Assembly: GCF_000214375.1 (NCBI RefSeq)
Contig: NC_015578.1
Coordinates: 744,001 to 808,000, forward strand
Length of the DNA stretch: 64,000 nucleotides
Origin: Treponema primitia ZAS-2
GTDB taxonomy: Bacteria > Spirochaetota > Spirochaetia > Treponematales > Breznakiellaceae
Reading direction: 5' to 3'
Position 1 is the stretch's first letter. Each line of letters begins with the position of its first letter. The position numbers and the translations under genes are program-made. The notes under the pieces are model-generated. The model was not told the origin of the DNA. It searched no databases and worked only from the letters and a program-made list of their open reading frames with translations. Positions 9,088 through 18,581 of the stretch are shown piece after piece.

Positions 9088-9508
9088 CGGTCCAGTATAA
9101 TACGCCGCGTAAAAAAGCGCCATGTTTTGCCAACAGTTCCCAGTTTAACCACCAGTGCATATTTCCCCTGAAACCTTGAACCAAAGCTGGCGCAAAGTAT
9201 AAAAGATATCCCTAACCATTATTTATAACAACTCTTTAATGCAGGTGCACAGGGACAGAGGCAGGGAGGGGAGGGTAATTGCCCAATACAATTACCATAA
9301 AAAACTGCTATTTTGCCTTGACAAAACCCGAAATAATGTCGATATAAAGCAATTTTTTTCTCCTTCCCTCGTAAGTCCCCTTGACGATTCTGATAACTCT
9401 TGTTACCATAATAACATATTCAAAGAAAAACACGAAATACAGGCGAGCTGTTACTACATTATAAGTCTAAGCATCCTTTTCTATATCCATTAGGGTTAGG
9501 GTGAATTG
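9088..9508. other. Intergenic region upstream of the first MalT-like gene
   Basis: About 420 bp without a convincing gene. An 84-codon frame (9239-9493) has no coding features. The right part is AT-rich and contains a promoter-like pair at 9318-9348. Bases 9247-9256 (AGGGACAGAG) weakly resemble the REP-like motif seen at 36-45 kb; this may be chance. Confidence 0.5.
9318..9348 (+). promoter_or_regulatory. Possible sigma-70 type promoter for the MalT-like gene
   Basis: A perfect -35 TTGACA (9318-9323) is followed by GATATAAA at 9341-9348. The best -10 (TATAAA) leaves a 19-bp spacer; a weaker reading (GATATA) gives 17 bp. The predicted leader is about 150 nt. Assigned by eye only. Confidence 0.4.
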
Positions 9509-12088
9509 ATGCCGGATCAGTTATTTTATAGCAATGTCCCCATTAATTCGGGGAATCAAATCTATTTGGACCGGCCCCAGGTACATGACTTACTGGAAAA
9601 GGCAGCACGGAGTCCAATCGTTACAGTAACCGCCGGGGCCGGCTATGGCAAGACCCAGGCGGTTTATTCATTTGCACGCAAGTACAATGCGGTTACGGCC
9701 TGGATACAGTTTTCCGAACGGGATAACCTGGGCGGGCGGTTTTGGGAAAATTATACCCGGGCCGTAGGGTTTATTGACAAAGAAACGGAGCTAAAACTCC
9801 GGGCTCTTGAGTTTCCCGATACGGATCAGAAGTTTGAACGGTATATGCGAATTCCCAGGAATGACATAAAGCCGGCGCAGAAGTACCTCTTTGTCTATGA
9901 CGATTTCCACCTGATCCGGGACCCGGGGGTGCTGCACTTTATTGAGCGGTCCATCACCACTCCCTTCTCCAATATCACTTCTATTCTTATTTCCCGGACG
10001 GAACCCCGGATCAATTCCATTCCCCTGCTCTCCAAAGGCTACCTGGCTCAGATTAACGAGGATGATCTGCGCTTTACGGCGGAGGAAACACAGGAGTATT
10101 TTTATTTGCAGCAGGTGGACGCCCCGCCGGATGCGGCAGCTACGGTGTGCCGGGATACCGAGGGCTGGGCCTTTGCCATACACCTGGCAGCTCTGGCTAT
10201 CAAGAATGAACCTTCGGGCAAGCGCTACGCTCCTTCCTCAGTTAAGGCAAACATCTTCAAGCTTATTGAAAGCGAGGTGGTTGCGGTTATTTCCGAAGAT
10301 TTGCGGAAATTTCTGATCAAGATTTCCCTGATAGAACATCTGGCCAGGGATATACTTTTGGACATTGCCGGGGATGCGGGGATTCTGGAGGAGCTGGAAG
10401 GGCTCGGCTCCTTTGTCCGCTACGATCCCTACCTAAACGCCTGGCGGGTCCACCATCTCTTCCTGGAGTATTTAAGCGGCAGGCAGGGGGAGCTTTCGGA
10501 GGAAGAAAAACAGGATGTCTACAGTAAAGCTGCCCGGTGGTGCGTGGAAAACAACCTTAAAATGGACGCCTTCAGTTATTATGAAAAGGCCGGGTCCTAT
10601 GATGCATTTCTCGAAGCGTCCTATACCCTGCCCCCCATACTGCCGAGCCCTATGGCCGCCTTCCTTCTGGAGATTTTGGACCGGGCGCCGGATTCGCTTT
10701 TTCAGGAAAACCCCCTGGCCTACCTCCTCCAAACGCGCATTCTCTTTACCCTGAAGCAGTTTGACCGGGCTTCTGCGGGACTTAGGGAAATTATAACCCA
10801 GCTGGAAATTGAAGCTCCCTCCTTTTTCAACAACCGTGTTCTGACAGGCTGTTATAACAACCTGGGATTGATAGGTTTGATAACCAGTATGCATACTTGT
10901 GACTACAGTTATGTTTCCTTCTTTGAACGGGCCTACCATTACTCCCAGCTGAGCGGCCATAAGCTTACGGGGCCCGCAACGGTGGCGCCGCTCAGTTCCT
11001 ACCTGTGCCGGGTAAGCAGCCCGGAAAAGGGGGAAGCGGAACGGTACAATGAGGCGATTGCGGCCATGGCGCCCTATATGTCCGACGCCAACGGGGGGCT
11101 TGGCTATGGCATGGGCGATATGGCCTGGGCGGAACTGGCTTTTTTCCGCGTCGACATGGCCAATGCGGAGCAGATGGCCTACCAGGCCCTGTTCAAGGCC
11201 CAGAAAAAGAATCAGTACGAAATAGCAAGCAGGGCGTTTTTTTACCTGATACGGATCAACCTTTTCTACGGAAACCCGGAAAAAATAGAAGAACTGCTTA
11301 AGCTCATGGAAGCCCAGCTTGAGGAAAAGGGGTACCTGAACCGTTATACCGATTACGATGTACAAACCGGCTGGTTCTATGCCCATATCGGCCAGATTTC
11401 CCGAATGGCCTCCTGGCTTAAAAATGATTTTGAAGAAAGCGATCTGAATCCCATGCTCTTGGGGCAGGAGACCCTGGTCCGGGTAAAATACTATATTACC
11501 CAAAAGCAGCACCTCAAGGCCCTGAGGCTGATAGAAAACGATAAAGACGAATACGGAATGGGGGCTTTTCTGTTTGGAAAAATAGGGAACAAACTCATAG
11601 AGGCTATGTGTTTCTACGATATGAAGGATATCCCCTGGGCAATAAATTCCCTGGAAGAAGCCTACTATCTGGCCGCCCCCAACGGCCTGGATATGATTTT
11701 CATTGAGCAGGGAAAGCGCACCCGAGCCCTGTTCTCTGCCGTTTTAAAGCACCAATGCTCCATCCCCCGGGAGTGGCTTGAAAAGATACTACGAAGCGCC
11801 TCGGCCTATGCGAAGAAACTGTATATAACCGTGGAAAAATTCCAGGACCCGGACTATGAAGATGCGGCGGGACCGGTAATTCTTTCCCGCCGGGAACTCT
11901 TGGTCCTGCGGGGCCTCTCCCGTGGATTAACCCGGGAAGAACTGGCGGATGATGGGGATATTTCCCTAAATACTGTTAAAAGCGTTATCAGAAGCGTGTA
12001 CAATAAACTTGGCGCAGTAAACCGGGCGGATGCGGTGCGGATCGCAACTTCTCTGGGTATCTTGAAAAGTGATGACCTCCGAAACTAG
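9509..12088 (+). CDS. MalT-like ATP-dependent LuxR-family transcriptional regulator, copy 1
   Basis: 859 residues from ATG 9509 (a TTG lies directly before it). The layout is that of large LuxR/MalT (LAL, STAND-class) regulators: an N-terminal NTPase with P-loop GAGYGKTQA (residues 43-51) and Walker B-like 'KYLFVYDDFHLI', a winged-helix region, a TPR-like helical sensor domain (about 340-770), and a C-terminal LuxR HTH ('LSRRELLVLRGLSRGLTREE' ... 'SLNTVKSVIRSVYNKLGAVN'). Family members bind ATP plus an inducer and activate promoters as oligomers. It is followed after 35 bp by a paralogue with the same architecture, so this is a tandem duplication. The inducer cannot be read from the sequence. 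Confidence 0.87.
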   Translation: MPDQLFYSNVPINSGNQIYLDRPQVHDLLEKAARSPIVTVTAGAGYGKTQAVYSFARKYNAVTAWIQFSERDNLGGRFWENYTRAVGFIDKETELKLRALEFPDTDQKFERYMRIPRNDIKPAQKYLFVYDDFHLIRDPGVLHFIERSITTPFSNITSILISRTEPRINSIPLLSKGYLAQINEDDLRFTAEETQEYFYLQQVDAPPDAAATVCRDTEGWAFAIHLAALAIKNEPSGKRYAPSSVKANIFKLIESEVVAVISEDLRKFLIKISLIEHLARDILLDIAGDAGILEELEGLGSFVRYDPYLNAWRVHHLFLEYLSGRQGELSEEEKQDVYSKAARWCVENNLKMDAFSYYEKAGSYDAFLEASYTLPPILPSPMAAFLLEILDRAPDSLFQENPLAYLLQTRILFTLKQFDRASAGLREIITQLEIEAPSFFNNRVLTGCYNNLGLIGLITSMHTCDYSYVSFFERAYHYSQLSGHKLTGPATVAPLSSYLCRVSSPEKGEAERYNEAIAAMAPYMSDANGGLGYGMGDMAWAELAFFRVDMANAEQMAYQALFKAQKKNQYEIASRAFFYLIRINLFYGNPEKIEELLKLMEAQLEEKGYLNRYTDYDVQTGWFYAHIGQISRMASWLKNDFEESDLNPMLLGQETLVRVKYYITQKQHLKALRLIENDKDEYGMGAFLFGKIGNKLIEAMCFYDMKDIPWAINSLEEAYYLAAPNGLDMIFIEQGKRTRALFSAVLKHQCSIPREWLEKILRSASAYAKKLYITVEKFQDPDYEDAAGPVILSRRELLVLRGLSRGLTREELADDGDISLNTVKSVIRSVYNKLGAVNRADAVRIATSLGILKSDDLRN

Positions 12089-12123
12089 AATTGAAGTAGT
12101 GAAAAAAATATTTCCTGATTGTT

Positions 12124-14619
12124 GTGCATCTGATAAATAATCAAATGTATCTTGAGCGGAAGCGGATTAACCGTTTACTGGAAAAGGCCCTACAGAACCC
12201 GGTGGTGACTGTAGTTGCCGGCGCCGGGTTTGGAAAAACCCGTGCGGTCTTATCGTTCCTCCGGGGAGAAGCGGGGCTTAGCCGCTGGCTGCCTGTCTCC
12301 GAATGGAATACCCATGCCCCTGTTTCCCTCCGGGACTTCCGGCCCGAAAACCCCAAGGCCCGGTGCGTACTTGTGCTGGATGATCTGCAGTTTGCCCGGG
12401 GGCCGGATCTGTCCGGGCTTCTTGAGGAATTTCTGGGGGCCCCCTATCCCAATATGCGGGTCATCCTCATCAGCCGGCAGGAGCTGGCCCTGTCTAAGGG
12501 CAAAGTTGGGCGGATTACCTGGGAGGATCTCCGGTTCAGGGAAGCGGAGATCCGGGACTATCTGCTGCTGCGGAACATTTCCGTTCCCCCGGGGATGGTG
12601 GAGGAAATTTACCAGCGTACCGAAGGCTGGGCTTTTGCGGTGCACCTGGCCGCCAGGGCCCTGGAACAGGGCCGCCTGAGGGCAGAGCGCTCCCTTTCCT
12701 CTATTCGTGCGAATATCTTCCGGTTCATTGAGACAGAGATCTTCAACCCCCTTCCCGAAAACTTAAAAAAATTTCTGATCAAGCTTTCCCTGATAGAACC
12801 CTGGCCTGCCGCCCTGGTGCAGGAACTTTCAGGCGATACGGGTCTTATTCCCCTGATGGAGGGGGTCAATTCCCTGATCGTGTACGATCCCGCAGAAAAG
12901 CGTTACAGGGTACATGGCTTGTTTCTCAAATTCCTTGTGGAAAAACAGGGAGAACTGGGGGAAGGGGAACAGCAGGATATCTATGCCCGCTCCGCCCACT
13001 GGTATCTGGAACACGGGATGAAGCAGGAAGCCCTTGCCTGTTACGGGAAAGCCGGGGATTACCGGGGTATCATCAAGCTGGTATTCAGCCTCCCCCAGAT
13101 CATACCCCAGGACACCGCCAGAGCCCTGCTGGAACTGTCAGAAAATCTGTTGGGGGAGGGGAAGGATCCTGACTTTCTGCGCCGTGCGGTCCGGCCCCGG
13201 CTGCTCTTCATACTGGGGCGTTTTGATGACGCAGTCGCCGCCAGCCGGGAGACCATCGATCTCTATGAAGGCCGCCCCGTCTCCCCGGAGGACAACCTGA
13301 TTCTGTATTTTGCCTACATTATCCTGGGCTTCGCTTCCCTGCTCAGCTGCGTCCATACCAAGCGCCGGGACTTCTGTGTTTTTTTTGAGCAGGCCTGGGT
13401 TTACTACCGTCGGAACCCGGTGCGCCTGGACGGGCCCATAAGCAGCGCCAACGCCGGGCCCTATGTGTGCCGGGTTGGGTATCCCCCGGAAAAAAACGAG
13501 ATCCCCGATTTTATCAATGCCCTGGCGGAGGCCATACCCCCCCTGGCGGATTCTATGGGCGGCGCCTTTTATGGCATGGAGGATCTGGCTTGGGCTGAAT
13601 TTGCCCTCTACCAGGGGGATCTGCTCCGGGGGGAAATTTATTCCCACCGGGCCCTCCGCAAAGCCCGGGAAAAGGGCCAGTTTGAAATAGAAACCCAGGC
13701 CTTGTTTTTTTTACTGCGGATCAATCTGGCGGAGGGTAGACTGGAACAGACAGCGGAACTGCTCAAGCAGTTGGAGGCGGGTATCCGGGTGGAATTTCCG
13801 GATCAGCGGATCCGCTATGATATACATTCCGGGTGGTTTTTTATACATATTGGCCTTCCCCGCCGTCTTGCGCCCTGGCTGAAAAATGATTTTGATCGCG
13901 GCGCCCTGCCTTCCCTGCTCAACGGTACTGCGGCCCTGGTAAAGGCAAAGTATTTCTATGCGCAGAAACGTTACCCTCTTGCCCTGGCTTCTCTGGAGGA
14001 ACAGAAGGGTGAGTACGGGCTGGGGGCTTTCCTGTTCGGAAAAATCGAAATGAAGGTCCTGGAGGCCCTGTGTTTGTACCGGGGAAAACGGAAAGACGCT
14101 GCCCTGGCGGCGCTTGAGGAAGCCTGGCGGATGGCGGAAGGGGACGCCCTGGAAATGCCCTTTATTGAGATGGGCAGGGATATGCGCACCCTAGTAAGCA
14201 CAGCGATTAAGTATGAAAAACCTGGGGCGCCCCGGGAATGGCTGGAACGGATACTCAGAAAATCTTCAGCCTATGCAAAAAAAACCTATGCAGCTGCAGA
14301 ACAATACCGGGAACTTTATAAAAAAGCTTCAGTTACTGCGCCCTTATCGCCAGGGGTGACTCTGACATCGGGGACGACTTTGACGTCGGGGGTGACTTTG
14401 ACACCGGGGACGACTTTGACGTCCCGGGAGATGCAGGTCCTTACCGGCCTTTCCCAGGGGCTCACCCGGGAGGAAATCGCCCGGGACGGGGGTATTTCCA
14501 TCAATACGGTGAAAAGCGTTATCAGAACTGTGTACCGCAAATTATCCGCAGTAAACCGGGCGGATGCGGTGCGTATCGCAATCGCCCGAAAAATACTTAC
14601 AAAAAATGAAGAAACTTAG
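12124..14619 (+). CDS. MalT-like ATP-dependent LuxR-family transcriptional regulator, copy 2
   Basis: 831 residues from GTG 12124, chosen because 'NNQMYLERKRINRLLEKAL' aligns with 'GNQIYLDRPQVHDLLEKAA' of copy 1. P-loop GAGFGKTRA (residues 33-41), Walker B 'RCVLVLDDLQFA', 'RTEGWAFAVHLAARAL', a TPR-like region and a LuxR HTH at the end ('SINTVKSVIRTVYRKLSAVN'). The HTH recognition region is almost the same as in copy 1, so both may bind similar operators, while the sensor domains differ more. Just before the HTH is a linker of four exact-length six-residue repeats (GVTLTS/GTTLTS, nt 14353-14424) that copy 1 lacks. No strong ribosome-binding site is visible; translation may be coupled to copy 1. 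Confidence 0.85.
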   Translation: MHLINNQMYLERKRINRLLEKALQNPVVTVVAGAGFGKTRAVLSFLRGEAGLSRWLPVSEWNTHAPVSLRDFRPENPKARCVLVLDDLQFARGPDLSGLLEEFLGAPYPNMRVILISRQELALSKGKVGRITWEDLRFREAEIRDYLLLRNISVPPGMVEEIYQRTEGWAFAVHLAARALEQGRLRAERSLSSIRANIFRFIETEIFNPLPENLKKFLIKLSLIEPWPAALVQELSGDTGLIPLMEGVNSLIVYDPAEKRYRVHGLFLKFLVEKQGELGEGEQQDIYARSAHWYLEHGMKQEALACYGKAGDYRGIIKLVFSLPQIIPQDTARALLELSENLLGEGKDPDFLRRAVRPRLLFILGRFDDAVAASRETIDLYEGRPVSPEDNLILYFAYIILGFASLLSCVHTKRRDFCVFFEQAWVYYRRNPVRLDGPISSANAGPYVCRVGYPPEKNEIPDFINALAEAIPPLADSMGGAFYGMEDLAWAEFALYQGDLLRGEIYSHRALRKAREKGQFEIETQALFFLLRINLAEGRLEQTAELLKQLEAGIRVEFPDQRIRYDIHSGWFFIHIGLPRRLAPWLKNDFDRGALPSLLNGTAALVKAKYFYAQKRYPLALASLEEQKGEYGLGAFLFGKIEMKVLEALCLYRGKRKDAALAALEEAWRMAEGDALEMPFIEMGRDMRTLVSTAIKYEKPGAPREWLERILRKSSAYAKKTYAAAEQYRELYKKASVTAPLSPGVTLTSGTTLTSGVTLTPGTTLTSREMQVLTGLSQGLTREEIARDGGISINTVKSVIRTVYRKLSAVNRADAVRIAIARKILTKNEET
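14353..14424 (+). repeat. 18-bp tandem repeat (4 units) in the linker of MalT-like copy 2
   Basis: Four consecutive 18-bp units, GGGGTGACTCTGACATCG and variants, encode GVTLTS-GTTLTS-GVTLTP-GTTLTS between the helical sensor and the HTH domain. The unit is a multiple of three, so copy-number change would keep the frame. Confidence 0.95.
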
Positions 14620-14819: not shown

Positions 14820-16298
14820 ATGACCCTTAATAACTCGAATATTATACTCCGCAGAGAGATAGAACCTATGCTGCTAAAAGCCCGGTCGGCTCTGCAATCC
14901 TATGAAAAAGCCACCGGCGTAAACGTATCCGTGTTGGATCAGGCGGGGCATTCTATTTCGGAAGAGATGGCTCAGCCCCCTGAAGAGGGCCGGGTAGTAG
15001 CGGCGCTACTTGCAACGAAGTCTCCCGCGCAGGAAACTCTCCGACTAAAGTCGGCGTTGCAAGCAGCGGACCAGGTGGGTGATCCGAGTTTTTTCTGCGC
15101 CCTCTGTAGAAAATATTCCCGGCAAGACGACCGGGTCTGGGATGATGATGAGTACCCCTGTACCGCTATACATATCCACAGTATTTCTCAGGCCCAGCAT
15201 GCAGGGGGAGTGTATATTTATACCTGTGAAATGGGTTTCGCTTACTGGACATGTCCTCTGTCTACCGGGGGGCGCCTGGCCGGAGCATTGATTGCCGGGA
15301 GGGTATTGGGGGTAAAACGGCAGGAAGCGGTGGAAAAAATTTTTACCATGAGCCGGGGGCTTATATCCCGGGAGGAATCGGCGGGATACCTGGAGTATGT
15401 TCCTGAAAAATCCCAGGATGAAATAAAGTCCCTGGCCCAGCTCCTGCTCACCTGTGCGGAACAGATATCCCGGTCGCCGGAAACCTATCACGAAATTCTT
15501 AAACGCCGGGCCCAGCAGCAAACAAAACTTTTGGATCAGATAGAAACCTTGAAAAACCAGTACCCCTCGGGAGAGCTGGTCCCCTGCTATCCCATAGAGA
15601 AGGAGCGGCTCCTTATGGCGTCCCTGCGGCGGGGGGATAACGAATCTTCCCGGAAAGTCCTGGACGAACTTCTTGCCCTTCTCTTTTTCTCGAACCCCGA
15701 TAATTTTAAGTTTATGCAGTACCGGGCCATTGAGCTGGTGGTGCTCCTCTCCCGGGCGGCGGTCACATCGGGCAACACTGAAGATGCGCTATTGGAGATG
15801 AATAACCAGTTCCTCCTGGACATACAGGAGGCGCAAAACATGGAGGAACTTATCGATATGCTGTACCAGGTAGTGGACAGCATGACCGGGCAGATTTTTT
15901 CCTTCCGGGGAGTGCGTCATGCCTCGGCGCTGCGGAAGGCGGAGCGGTATATCTGGGAAAACTACACCCGCAAATTGAGCCTCCAGGAGGTGGCCACCGC
16001 TTCGGGACTTTCCGCCCCCTATTTCAGTACCGTGTTCAAAGAAGAAATGGGGGAGAACCTGTCAGGGTACCTGAACCGCCTCCGGGTGGAACGGGCCGCA
16101 GCTATGCTAAGCGGTTCTGATTTTCCTCTGAGTGAAATAGCCGGGGCCTGTGGGTTCGAGGATCAAAGCTGGTTTTCGAAGATATTCAAAAATTATACCG
16201 GAATGAGCCCGGGAAAATACCGAATTCAGAATTGCGGTTCCGGCCCGGCGTTATCGACGGATAATCTGCCGGTGAATCACCACACGATAGGCGGGTAA
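14820..16298 (+). CDS. PocR-domain AraC-family transcriptional regulator, copy 1
   Basis: 492 residues; ATG 14820 with AGGAGA 7 nt upstream. The N-terminal ~185 residues are a PocR-type ligand-binding domain: 'VSVLDQAGHSISEE', a Cys cluster 'FCALCRKYS' and 'YPCTAIHIHSI', then 'YIYTCEMGFAYWTCPL' and 'GGRLAGALIAGRVLGV'. A helical linker carries 'ERLLMASLRRGDNESSRKVL'. The C-terminus is a two-HTH AraC domain ('KLSLQEVATASGLSAPYFS' and 'LSEIAGACGFEDQSWFSKIF'). PocR domains are found in regulators of B12-dependent or hydrocarbon-derivative metabolism (family knowledge). It lies 4 bp upstream of a paralogue and 1.6 kb upstream of a corrinoid protein gene. A palindromic insertion (15009-15063) lies inside the PocR coding region. 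Confidence 0.87.
   Translation: MTLNNSNIILRREIEPMLLKARSALQSYEKATGVNVSVLDQAGHSISEEMAQPPEEGRVVAALLATKSPAQETLRLKSALQAADQVGDPSFFCALCRKYSRQDDRVWDDDEYPCTAIHIHSISQAQHAGGVYIYTCEMGFAYWTCPLSTGGRLAGALIAGRVLGVKRQEAVEKIFTMSRGLISREESAGYLEYVPEKSQDEIKSLAQLLLTCAEQISRSPETYHEILKRRAQQQTKLLDQIETLKNQYPSGELVPCYPIEKERLLMASLRRGDNESSRKVLDELLALLFFSNPDNFKFMQYRAIELVVLLSRAAVTSGNTEDALLEMNNQFLLDIQEAQNMEELIDMLYQVVDSMTGQIFSFRGVRHASALRKAERYIWENYTRKLSLQEVATASGLSAPYFSTVFKEEMGENLSGYLNRLRVERAAAMLSGSDFPLSEIAGACGFEDQSWFSKIFKNYTGMSPGKYRIQNCGSGPALSTDNLPVNHHTIGG
15009..15063. repeat. Palindromic element inside the PocR copy 1 gene
   Basis: CTTGCAAC (15009-15016) is mirrored by GTTGCAAG (15056-15063), with an inner palindrome CCGACTAAAGTCGG (15041-15054). 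The element is read through in frame ('LATKSPAQETLRLKSALQA') and lies just before the Cys cluster. A related element with the same CGCTACTTGCAAC edge and a CCGGCTAAAGCCGG core overlaps the end of argH at 60.99-61.03 kb. Confidence 0.75.
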
Positions 16299-16302
16299 AA
16301 AT

Positions 16303-17916
16303 ATGAATGACGAAAAAATAAGCAATGTTAAAACTAGGGCCAATCTTGTTAGAGAAACTGACCCCTTGCTGGTCAGGGCCTGGAAGGTGCTTAATATTTA
16401 CGCAAAGTCTACCGGAACTGTTTGTTGTGTGCTGGATCAGGATTTTTTGCCGATTCGTGAAACCTTCCCTGGCCTTATCGGGGAGACCAATACCTGCATT
16501 AACTATTGTCTTAAATATGCTGCGGACAGGAGTCCCCGGGACTCCCGGAATCCTGATGATTCCCGGAATCCTGATGATTCCCGGAATCCCGATGATTCCC
16601 GGAATCCCGATGATTCCCGGAATCATCGGGACTGCACGTCCCTGGATAACAAATCCGGGGATCCTATCCGAACTTCCGATTTACGATCCCACCCCTGTAA
16701 CATGCTGCATATAAACAGCATCAAGGAAGCTCACCGTTTCGGAGGCTCCTACATCTATATGTGTGAACTGGGGTTTATGTTCTGGACCAGTCCCCTTTAT
16801 TCCGAGGGACGTTTTATAGGGGCCCTGGTTGGATCGGGATTCCTGGGCATTGATCGCAGGGAGACCCAGGAAGTCATGCAGATAATGAGTAGTGGAACCG
16901 TCTCTCCCCAGGAACTGGAAACCCGGCTGTCCCAGTTCTCCAGTGGCGAATCTGAACGGATTAAAGCCTTGGCAGATTTGCTGCTGATCTGCGCCGAGTA
17001 CCTTTCCACGGGCTCAGATGATTACTTTGACAATCTTCGGGGACGGCCGGAAACCCGGCCGGAACCGCAGGTGCGGACAGAAATACTGCGGAATTCCCGT
17101 TCTGCCCATGTTCAGGTTCCCGGGTATCCCATGGATAAGGAACGGATGCTTTTGGCGGCTCTGCGCCGGGGGGATAACGATTCGGGGCGGAGAATACTAA
17201 ACGAGCTTCTGGAGATACTTTTTTATTCAAACTCGGATCAATTTAAGTTTGTCCAGTTCCGGGCAATAGAACTGGTGGTCCTCCTTTCCCGGGCAGCCAT
17301 GATGCAGGGGAAGGGAGAAGGCCCGGCTTCCCTGCCGTCGCAGCTCTCGGAGACGCTTCCTATGTCAAGTTCAGCCGGCCCGGCTGAAACCGGCCTGACC
17401 GAGGCCGGCTCAACGGAAGTTGGCCCAACGGAAGTTGGCGATGACAGTATGCTGGAAACAAATAACCGTTACCTCCGCCGCATCCAGGAAGCGAAGAGCA
17501 TTGAGGAACTCACCGACGTGCTCCATATTATTGTGGAGCGAATGTCCTCCCAGATCTTTTCATTCCAGGGAGTACGCCATGCCTCGGCTTTGCGCAAGGC
17601 GGAACGGTATATCTGGGAAAACTACACCCGCAAACTGAGCCTCCAGGAGGTGGCCTCTGCTTCGGGACTTTCCGCCCCCTATTTCAGCTCTATCTTTAAG
17701 GAGGAAATGGGGGAAAACCTTTCAAGCTACCTGAACCGTCTCCGGGTTGAGAAGGCGGGGCACATGCTGACCGAGACCGACTTGTCTCTCAATGAAATTG
17801 CGGCTTCCTGCGGCTTTGAAGATCAAAGCTGGTTCTCGAAGATATTCAAAAGTTTTACCAGCGTAAGCCCCGGAAAATACCGGGGTCAGGGCGGCGGTGA
17901 ATCTGTTTCAAATTAA
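16303..17916 (+). CDS. PocR-domain AraC-family transcriptional regulator, copy 2
   Basis: 537 residues from ATG 16303, 4 bp after copy 1. Same architecture: PocR domain ('CVLDQDFLPIRETFPG', 'CINYCLKYA', 'HPCNMLHINSI', 'YIYMCELGFMFWTSPLYSEG'), helical linker and C-terminal AraC domain. The AraC part is nearly identical to copy 1 in DNA as well as protein, while the sensor is well diverged, suggesting a shared operator but different ligand properties. It carries two expansions absent from copy 1: five SRNPDD units between the Cys pair and HPC (nt 16540-16629), and a degenerate 'TEAGSTEVGPTEVG' linker (about nt 17379-17440). Copy 2 is followed by the corrinoid protein gene after 26 bp, implying co-transcription. 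Confidence 0.86.
   Translation: MNDEKISNVKTRANLVRETDPLLVRAWKVLNIYAKSTGTVCCVLDQDFLPIRETFPGLIGETNTCINYCLKYAADRSPRDSRNPDDSRNPDDSRNPDDSRNPDDSRNHRDCTSLDNKSGDPIRTSDLRSHPCNMLHINSIKEAHRFGGSYIYMCELGFMFWTSPLYSEGRFIGALVGSGFLGIDRRETQEVMQIMSSGTVSPQELETRLSQFSSGESERIKALADLLLICAEYLSTGSDDYFDNLRGRPETRPEPQVRTEILRNSRSAHVQVPGYPMDKERMLLAALRRGDNDSGRRILNELLEILFYSNSDQFKFVQFRAIELVVLLSRAAMMQGKGEGPASLPSQLSETLPMSSSAGPAETGLTEAGSTEVGPTEVGDDSMLETNNRYLRRIQEAKSIEELTDVLHIIVERMSSQIFSFQGVRHASALRKAERYIWENYTRKLSLQEVASASGLSAPYFSSIFKEEMGENLSSYLNRLRVEKAGHMLTETDLSLNEIAASCGFEDQSWFSKIFKSFTSVSPGKYRGQGGGESVSN
16540..16629 (+). repeat. 18-bp tandem repeat (5 units) inside PocR copy 2
   Basis: Five head-to-tail copies of GATTCCCGGAATCCTGAT (last copy diverged) encode D-S-R-N-P-D units in a loop of the PocR domain. 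Each unit contains the self-complementary TCCCGGAATCC core. It is frame-neutral and probably length-variable between strains. Confidence 0.95.
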
Positions 17917-17942
17917 AACTAAAAATACCCAGGAGGTATACG

Positions 17943-18581
17943 ATGGTTAATTTAAGTGACATTTCCAACAGTCTCCAGTCGGGGAAGGCAAAAGAAACTT
18001 CGGATTTGATTGCCAGGGCTATCAAAGAAAATTACAGTGTGGAGAGCATCCTTAGGCAGGGACTGATCCCCGGCATGTACGCCATGACAAACCGGTATAA
18101 GCGGCGGGAGATATTCAGGCCGGAACTGCTCATCGCCGCCCGGGCCATGAATATAGGTATCGGGGTGCTCAGGCCGGCGATTGCCTCATCAGCCGGAGAA
18201 CCCAAGGGTGCCGTGATTATCGGCGCTGTAAAAGGGGATATCCATGATATTGAAAAGACCCTTGCGGCGGTAACCCTGGAAGGGGCTGGTTTCCGGGTAA
18301 TAGATCTGGGGGTCAGTGTTTCCCCAGAGCGCTTTGTGGAAGCCGCTGTCAGAGAAAGCGCCCAGATTATCCTCTGTTTTTCCAGTCTGCCCGCAACCAT
18401 GCCCCAGCTCAAGTCTGTGGTTCACGCCGCGTCCTCCGCAGGCATACGGAGCCGGGTCAAGATCATGATTACTGGCGCCCCGGTGACGGAGAAATACTGC
18501 CAGGATATCGGCGCGGATTTTTACGCCAGGGATACTGTAGGCGTTGTGGAGATGGCTAGGGCAGCTTGCAGTAATGGGTGA
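17943..18581 (+). CDS. Stand-alone corrinoid (B12-binding) protein, MtaC/MttC-like
   Basis: 212 residues; ATG 17943 with a strong AGGAGGT 5 nt upstream. Residues ~5-85 form the helical cap typical of methyltransferase corrinoid proteins ('GLIPGMYAMTNRYKRREIF', 'PELLIAARAMNIGI'). The Rossmann-like B12 domain follows: 'GAVIIGAVKGDIHDIEKTLA' with D99 and H101 of the DxHxxG motif, then 'CFSSLPATMPQ' and 'ITGAPVTEKYCQDIGADFY'. The normally conserved Gly of DxHxxG is Glu (E104). In known systems such proteins shuttle a methyl group between a substrate-specific and a general methyltransferase; neither partner is in the window. Linked to two PocR regulators, it could instead act in sensing, which is inference. 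Confidence 0.88.
   Translation: MVNLSDISNSLQSGKAKETSDLIARAIKENYSVESILRQGLIPGMYAMTNRYKRREIFRPELLIAARAMNIGIGVLRPAIASSAGEPKGAVIIGAVKGDIHDIEKTLAAVTLEGAGFRVIDLGVSVSPERFVEAAVRESAQIILCFSSLPATMPQLKSVVHAASSAGIRSRVKIMITGAPVTEKYCQDIGADFYARDTVGVVEMARAACSNG

Follow-up and report, generated by a model that had tools for sequence, protein, structure and literature searches.

We found that a small corrinoid-fold gene of Treponema primitia ZAS-2, here called COR, terminates a cluster that otherwise consists of transcription regulators, and that the protein belongs to a clade with an eroded B12-binding signature. We favor the view that this clade gave up its cofactor to become a dedicated co-regulator of the paired PocR-AraC proteins of termite-gut spirochetes, with canonical PocR-linked relatives marking the steps; i.e., COR is probably a descendant of the methyltransferase-type corrinoid proteins that has turned into a regulatory partner. 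On this reading, COR would let one trace how a metabolic protein that carried a cofactor took on a regulatory role, with a living series that runs from RACo-PocR-COR operons, through the PocR-COR-CobW arrangement of one locus at the same site and a form that keeps His with a Gly to Pro change, to forms that have lost all motifs. The module would also offer a way to learn which signals the PocR domains of termite-gut spirochetes detect. In the literature on PocR with corrinoid or with demethylation, we found no earlier description of a PocR-COR module.

A cluster of regulators that ends in a corrinoid-fold gene

The genome of T. primitia ZAS-2 is a single contig of 4,059,867 bases, and the window, i.e., the whole 64-kb stretch of it that was analyzed, carries the following features of the cluster:

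9506..12088, + strand: MalT-like LuxR regulator 1 (MalT-like TPR and GerE), the first gene of the module; GerE 1.6e-11, MalT profile 4.1e-53, below the cut-off of that profile
12124..14619, + strand: MalT-like LuxR regulator 2; GerE 2.9e-13, MalT profile 7.3e-33, below the cut-off of that profile
14820..16298, + strand: PocR-AraC regulator 1 (POC1); PocR 1.2e-15, HTH_18 4e-21
16303..17916, + strand: PocR-AraC regulator 2 (POC2); PocR 3.9e-12, HTH_18 1.1e-21
17931..17936, + strand: Shine-Dalgarno sequence AGGAGG of COR, read from the sequence, with a comparable site in most orthologs
17943..18581, + strand: corrinoid-fold gene COR, 212 aa, domains B12-binding_2 and B12-binding

The gene order is MalT-MalT-PocR/AraC-PocR/AraC-COR, and the local genes are regulators only. 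POC2 starts 4 bp beyond POC1, and COR, the last gene of the cluster, follows in the same orientation about 27 bp past POC2. The placement of COR behind two PocR-AraC regulators, as given in the original prediction, is thereby borne out: both 5′ open reading frames combine a PocR sensor with an AraC HTH, each above its curated cut-off, and in a profile search these two are the sole PocR domains of the genome. Three cysteines of the PocR-AraC proteins (window 14820-17916; Cys96, Cys114 and Cys136 as numbered in POC1) are conserved across at least 94% of 145 relatives, and this conservation suggests a metal or redox site. An 18-bp tandem repeat in POC2 (window 16543-16624, 4.6 copies, 98% match) encodes (DSRNPD)n directly ahead of the PocR domain match, and a 36-bp/18-bp tandem repeat in the second MalT-like gene (window 14353-14423) lies directly ahead of its LuxR HTH.

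The same prediction had noted the lack of a methyltransferase, a reactivase or a cobalamin riboswitch nearby, and our scans of the 64-kb window detected neither RACo nor a UroD-type methyltransferase nor a cobalamin riboswitch; four cobalamin riboswitches lie in the rest of the genome. It had further offered, as the conventional alternative, a methyl-transfer role with distant partners, wherein COR would be an ordinary methyl carrier with its methyltransferase and reactivase encoded elsewhere. The genome does supply candidates, namely 14 UroD-family matches and two RACo genes; however, three UroD-bearing stretches (L100, L101 and L102) have their own intact corrinoid proteins beside the UroD genes, COR itself is surrounded by regulators, and its signature is lost family-wide (see below). 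We found no methyltransferase dedicated to COR, and we hold this alternative to be highly improbable. The nearest stand-alone corrinoid proteins of the same genome keep intact motifs, and their stretches hold UroD, DUF2284 or RACo genes. One of these stretches, L102 (positions 1273500-1293400 of the genome), combines two NDIHNIG corrinoid proteins with a UroD-family gene, an MFS transporter, CobW and DUF1638, and is probably an uncharacterized methyltransferase system.

Erosion of the B12 signature

COR matches the Pfam models B12-binding_2 (1.4e-14) and B12-binding (1.5e-19), and its best NCBIfam matches are the MtgC, TIGR02370 and MtbC corrinoid proteins, every one under its curated cut-off (157.1 bits against 370 for the best MtgC model and 137 against 215.3 for TIGR02370). 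By family membership, we assign COR as a full-length MtbC/MtgC-type corrinoid protein. Alignment with its relatives yields the following departures from the canonical residues:

18087..18089, + strand: T49 in the helical cap, a position that is Gly in 72/76 canonical proteins and Glu in 30/39 module proteins
18234..18254, + strand: G98-DIHDI-E104, an altered DxHxxG with Gly replaced by Glu and His kept in the window copy
18378..18386, + strand: F146-S147-S148 at the place of the SxL motif
18471..18476, + strand: T177-G178 at the place of the GG motif

No part of the three-part B12 signature is intact in the window copy: DxHxxG reads DIHDIE, SxL reads FSS and GG reads TG. The residues on which the original prediction was built (D99 and H101 kept, E104 in place of Gly) are as it described them; the loss of SxL, the TG at the GG motif, the Thr at cap position G49 and the two MalT-like LuxR genes 5′ of the pair (9506-14619) go beyond it. 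The last position of DxHxxG is Gly in all 76 of the aligned non-module corrinoid proteins and Glu in none of them; a Glu common here in functional MtaC-type proteins would have counted against the original prediction, and it never occurs in the canonical proteins sampled. In MetH, this Gly lines the nucleotide-tail groove, and E104 stands at that place in COR. Of what characterizes a methyltransferase corrinoid protein, COR therefore has the domain pair and lacks DxHxxG, SxL, GG, the partner-gene context and a score above the NCBIfam cut-off.

Across 200 genomes of the same family, we recovered COR behind a PocR-AraC pair in 38 genomes (window included), with one locus each, whose neighborhoods were read; an additional locus, L153, has COR with a single PocR-AraC gene. 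The PocR-to-COR gap has a median of 36 bp over these 39 loci (38 pair loci and L153). All of these loci fall in one clade of the maximum-likelihood tree (UFBoot 100). Residues were tallied in 39 module proteins, among them L156, which has its PocR genes on a separate contig. The axial His101 persists in only two of the 39, the window copy and L086; the others have Gln (18), Glu (10), Arg (7) or another residue there. The motif Gly104 persists in L158 alone, whose alignment is doubtful, with Glu in 24, and the remaining signature residues are comparably depleted (S146 in 6/39, L148 in 0/39 and G177 in 2/39). D121, L122, G123, G178, P180, A191 and D192 are invariant in 39/39. Among 35 canonically conserved positions, five of the seven signature positions are lost vs two of the 28 others (Fisher p = 0.0012), the latter two being G49 (now mostly Glu) and V108, while E29, Y31, E138 and C186 are newly constrained. 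L086 reads DLHDIP, where Pro replaces Gly but His remains, a form that fits the D/ExHx2G/P signature (PMC9304148). Orthologs in 37 other genomes show that the erosion is a trait of the family rather than an isolated mutation or an error of sequencing. Pairwise dN/dS medians are 0.06-0.22 in the module groups vs 0.07-0.19 in the canonical groups; therefore, the protein is maintained under purifying selection.

These counts bear on the proposal of the original prediction that COR is a corrinoid-based sensor feeding a PocR regulator. Its regulatory half stands, given the order kept in 38 genomes, the lack of methyltransferase and reactivase partners and the purifying selection, whereas its corrinoid half is weakened by the family-wide loss of His, Gly, SxL and GG. 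In such a sensor, COR would bind a cobamide via His101 in the window copy, or base-on in the His-less orthologs, and report cobamide or methyl status to PocR-AraC. Corrinoids are made by T. primitia ZAS-2 (PMC6461909), the window copy keeps both His101 and Asp99, and the lineage probably goes back to a PocR-linked corrinoid protein. However, His is gone in 37 of the 39 proteins, and the window copy falls in a tree group that otherwise has Gln or Arg, so that its His101 may be a chance return. E104 also occupies the place of the Gly of the nucleotide-tail groove. Judging by the shape of the tree, His101 may have been kept amid several losses in the relatives or regained by one base change, and in either case constitutes weak evidence for cobalt binding. 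From these residues, the family as a whole is unlikely to bind a corrinoid in the canonical way, such binding by the window copy is doubtful, and we consider a corrinoid sensor unlikely overall.

The relatives are for the most part incomplete MAGs. Many have the PocR pair without COR, in some cases at the same chromosomal site; hence, the pair can do without COR, which is dispensable in many lineages. The first MalT-like gene also precedes the PocR pair in many of the related genomes. The absences at the same site could mean that COR is a decaying relic trailing the regulators, but its dN/dS is comparable to that of the canonical groups, open frames with Shine-Dalgarno-like sites are present at 39 loci and the fold residues are invariant, making this reading very improbable; a pseudogene is rejected on the dN/dS and the open reading frames. 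A search of 394 genomes of the order, among matches at E <= 1e-48, returned no degenerate module outside this family (f1), and turned up canonical relatives linked to PocR in a second family (f4). In L158, a 723 aa frame that appeared to fuse COR to a large open reading frame was rejected since its 5′ part is an in-frame low-complexity repeat, which spans about 1.5 kb and separates POC2 from COR (L158 6549-8048, genome G160).

Predicted fold and a possible alternative ligand

An AlphaFold2 model of the window copy, built with 33 family members, displays a four-helix cap and a Rossmann fold with a pLDDT of 94.7. It superimposes on 1y80 with a Z of 25.3 (0.9 Å over 125 residues; 40% identity in the Rossmann domain) and aligns to 3ezx over 208 residues; it also matches AppA from the AppA-PpsR2 complex (4hh3_C, Z 16.9) and AerR (7te2, Z 16.8). 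A module member with GEYEDIH at the motif is predicted just as well (pLDDT 93.7), its helices and strands following one another in the same sequence. These models may merely echo the known corrinoid-bound fold. All 33 of the family members match Pfam B12-binding, with the cap and Rossmann domains found in 32-33 of the 33; therefore, the domain annotation alone hides the loss of the signature. The annotation of the module COR proteins as cobalamin-binding methyl carriers is probably wrong.

The old corrin pocket could instead house another ligand, e.g., heme or a small metabolite, in the manner of the AppA SCHIC domain. There is a precedent in SCHIC (PMC9144470), the folds are alike, and both the purifying selection and the new constraint on E29, Y31, E138 and C186 are in keeping with such a pocket. 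However, the family is without a conserved axial His for heme, and a ligand-free partner fits the same data; we regard another ligand as improbable.

COR as a predicted co-regulator of the PocR-AraC pair

The regulator-only cluster, the conserved linkage, the retained fold and the lost cofactor site together argue for a protein-protein role of COR with the PocR-AraC pair. In the co-regulator that we favor, COR would retain the cap and the Rossmann fold with a B12 signature eroded family-wide, and has most likely lost the ability to carry a base-off/His-on cobamide. It would probably bind one or both of the PocR-AraC proteins and tune their DNA binding, with both the contact and its direction being our inference. 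By analogy, the AppA SCHIC domain and Rhodospirillum rubrum HP1 show that such a regulatory role is possible for COR.

AppA, AerR and especially HP1 appear to be the closest parallels. HP1 (Rru_A0625), of the PpaA/AerR family, is likewise a small B12-fold relative that has lost the cobalamin motif, adjoins the gene of a DNA-binding regulator (ppsR) and still controls photosynthesis genes (PMC10734443). However, HP1 is one protein of one phototroph with a barely recognizable domain, whereas COR is a clade in 38 genomes that comes from a methyltransferase corrinoid protein and lies beside PocR-AraC. AerR/PpaA with CrtJ/PpsR and AppA SCHIC are cases of a B12-fold protein, free-standing or fused, that binds a transcription factor and controls it; AerR binds cobalamin, SCHIC binds heme and both partner with PpsR/CrtJ (PMC9144470). 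COR is 13-16% identical to them in sequence. COR shares with the AerR/PpaA/AppA type the corrinoid-type fold and the adjacency to a regulator gene (38 genomes), but its neighbors are PocR-AraC instead of PpsR/CrtJ. CarA of Myxococcus xanthus (PMC9304148) is a further B12-fold regulator that works without B12; unlike COR, it has an intact B12 motif and a fused DNA-binding domain of the MerR type. B12-fold co-regulators are thus already known, and COR would add a PocR-AraC-linked clade of methyltransferase origin.

On the enzymatic side, the MtbC/MtgC/MtaC corrinoid proteins (solved as 1y80 and 3ezx) have the two domains, length and fold of COR; unlike COR, they have an intact DxHxxG-SxL-GG signature and are encoded alongside methyltransferase or RACo genes. 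PocR domains have already been tied to corrinoid methyltransferase clusters, according to the statement in PMC9768040 that cites Anantharaman and Aravind 2005. In the dichloromethane mec cluster, the histidine kinase MecA places a PocR sensor beside corrinoid methyltransferase genes (PMC9768040); in that cluster, the corrinoid system serves catalysis and the PocR domain belongs to a kinase, whereas the COR cluster has no enzyme left.

Origin from PocR-linked corrinoid proteins

The nearest canonical relatives, from another spirochete family, are encoded in RACo-PocR/AraC-COR operons (L040, L088, L089, L159, L162 and L163). A closer canonical relative, L153, combines one PocR-AraC gene with a COR that has GDLHNIG and a CobW-type GTPase, and this PocR-COR-CobW locus is flanked by fliG and by a DEAD-box helicase with malK. 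The eroded-COR loci L083, L087, L090, L091, L138, L139, L142, L144, L151 and L155 each share at least one of these fliG/DEAD-helicase/malK flanks. The branching is nested, with L040 followed by L153, then by L086 and then by the remaining module proteins. By phylogeny and gene neighborhood, we place the descent of COR among PocR-linked canonical corrinoid proteins; probably, a MalT/PocR/PocR regulatory operon recruited a protein that had once carried methyl groups. In the simplest history that we infer, PocR was duplicated, the MalT-like genes were gained, part of the lineages lost CobW, the B12 site eroded and COR was deleted repeatedly; in the PocR tree, POC1 and POC2 are not cleanly separated, and this tree was left out of the dating. 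The CobW gene 3′ of COR is retained in nine other module loci, such that a CobW-type (COG0523) GTPase lies immediately 3′ of COR in L136, L137, L140, L141, L143, L146, L147, L149 and L150 as well as in L153.
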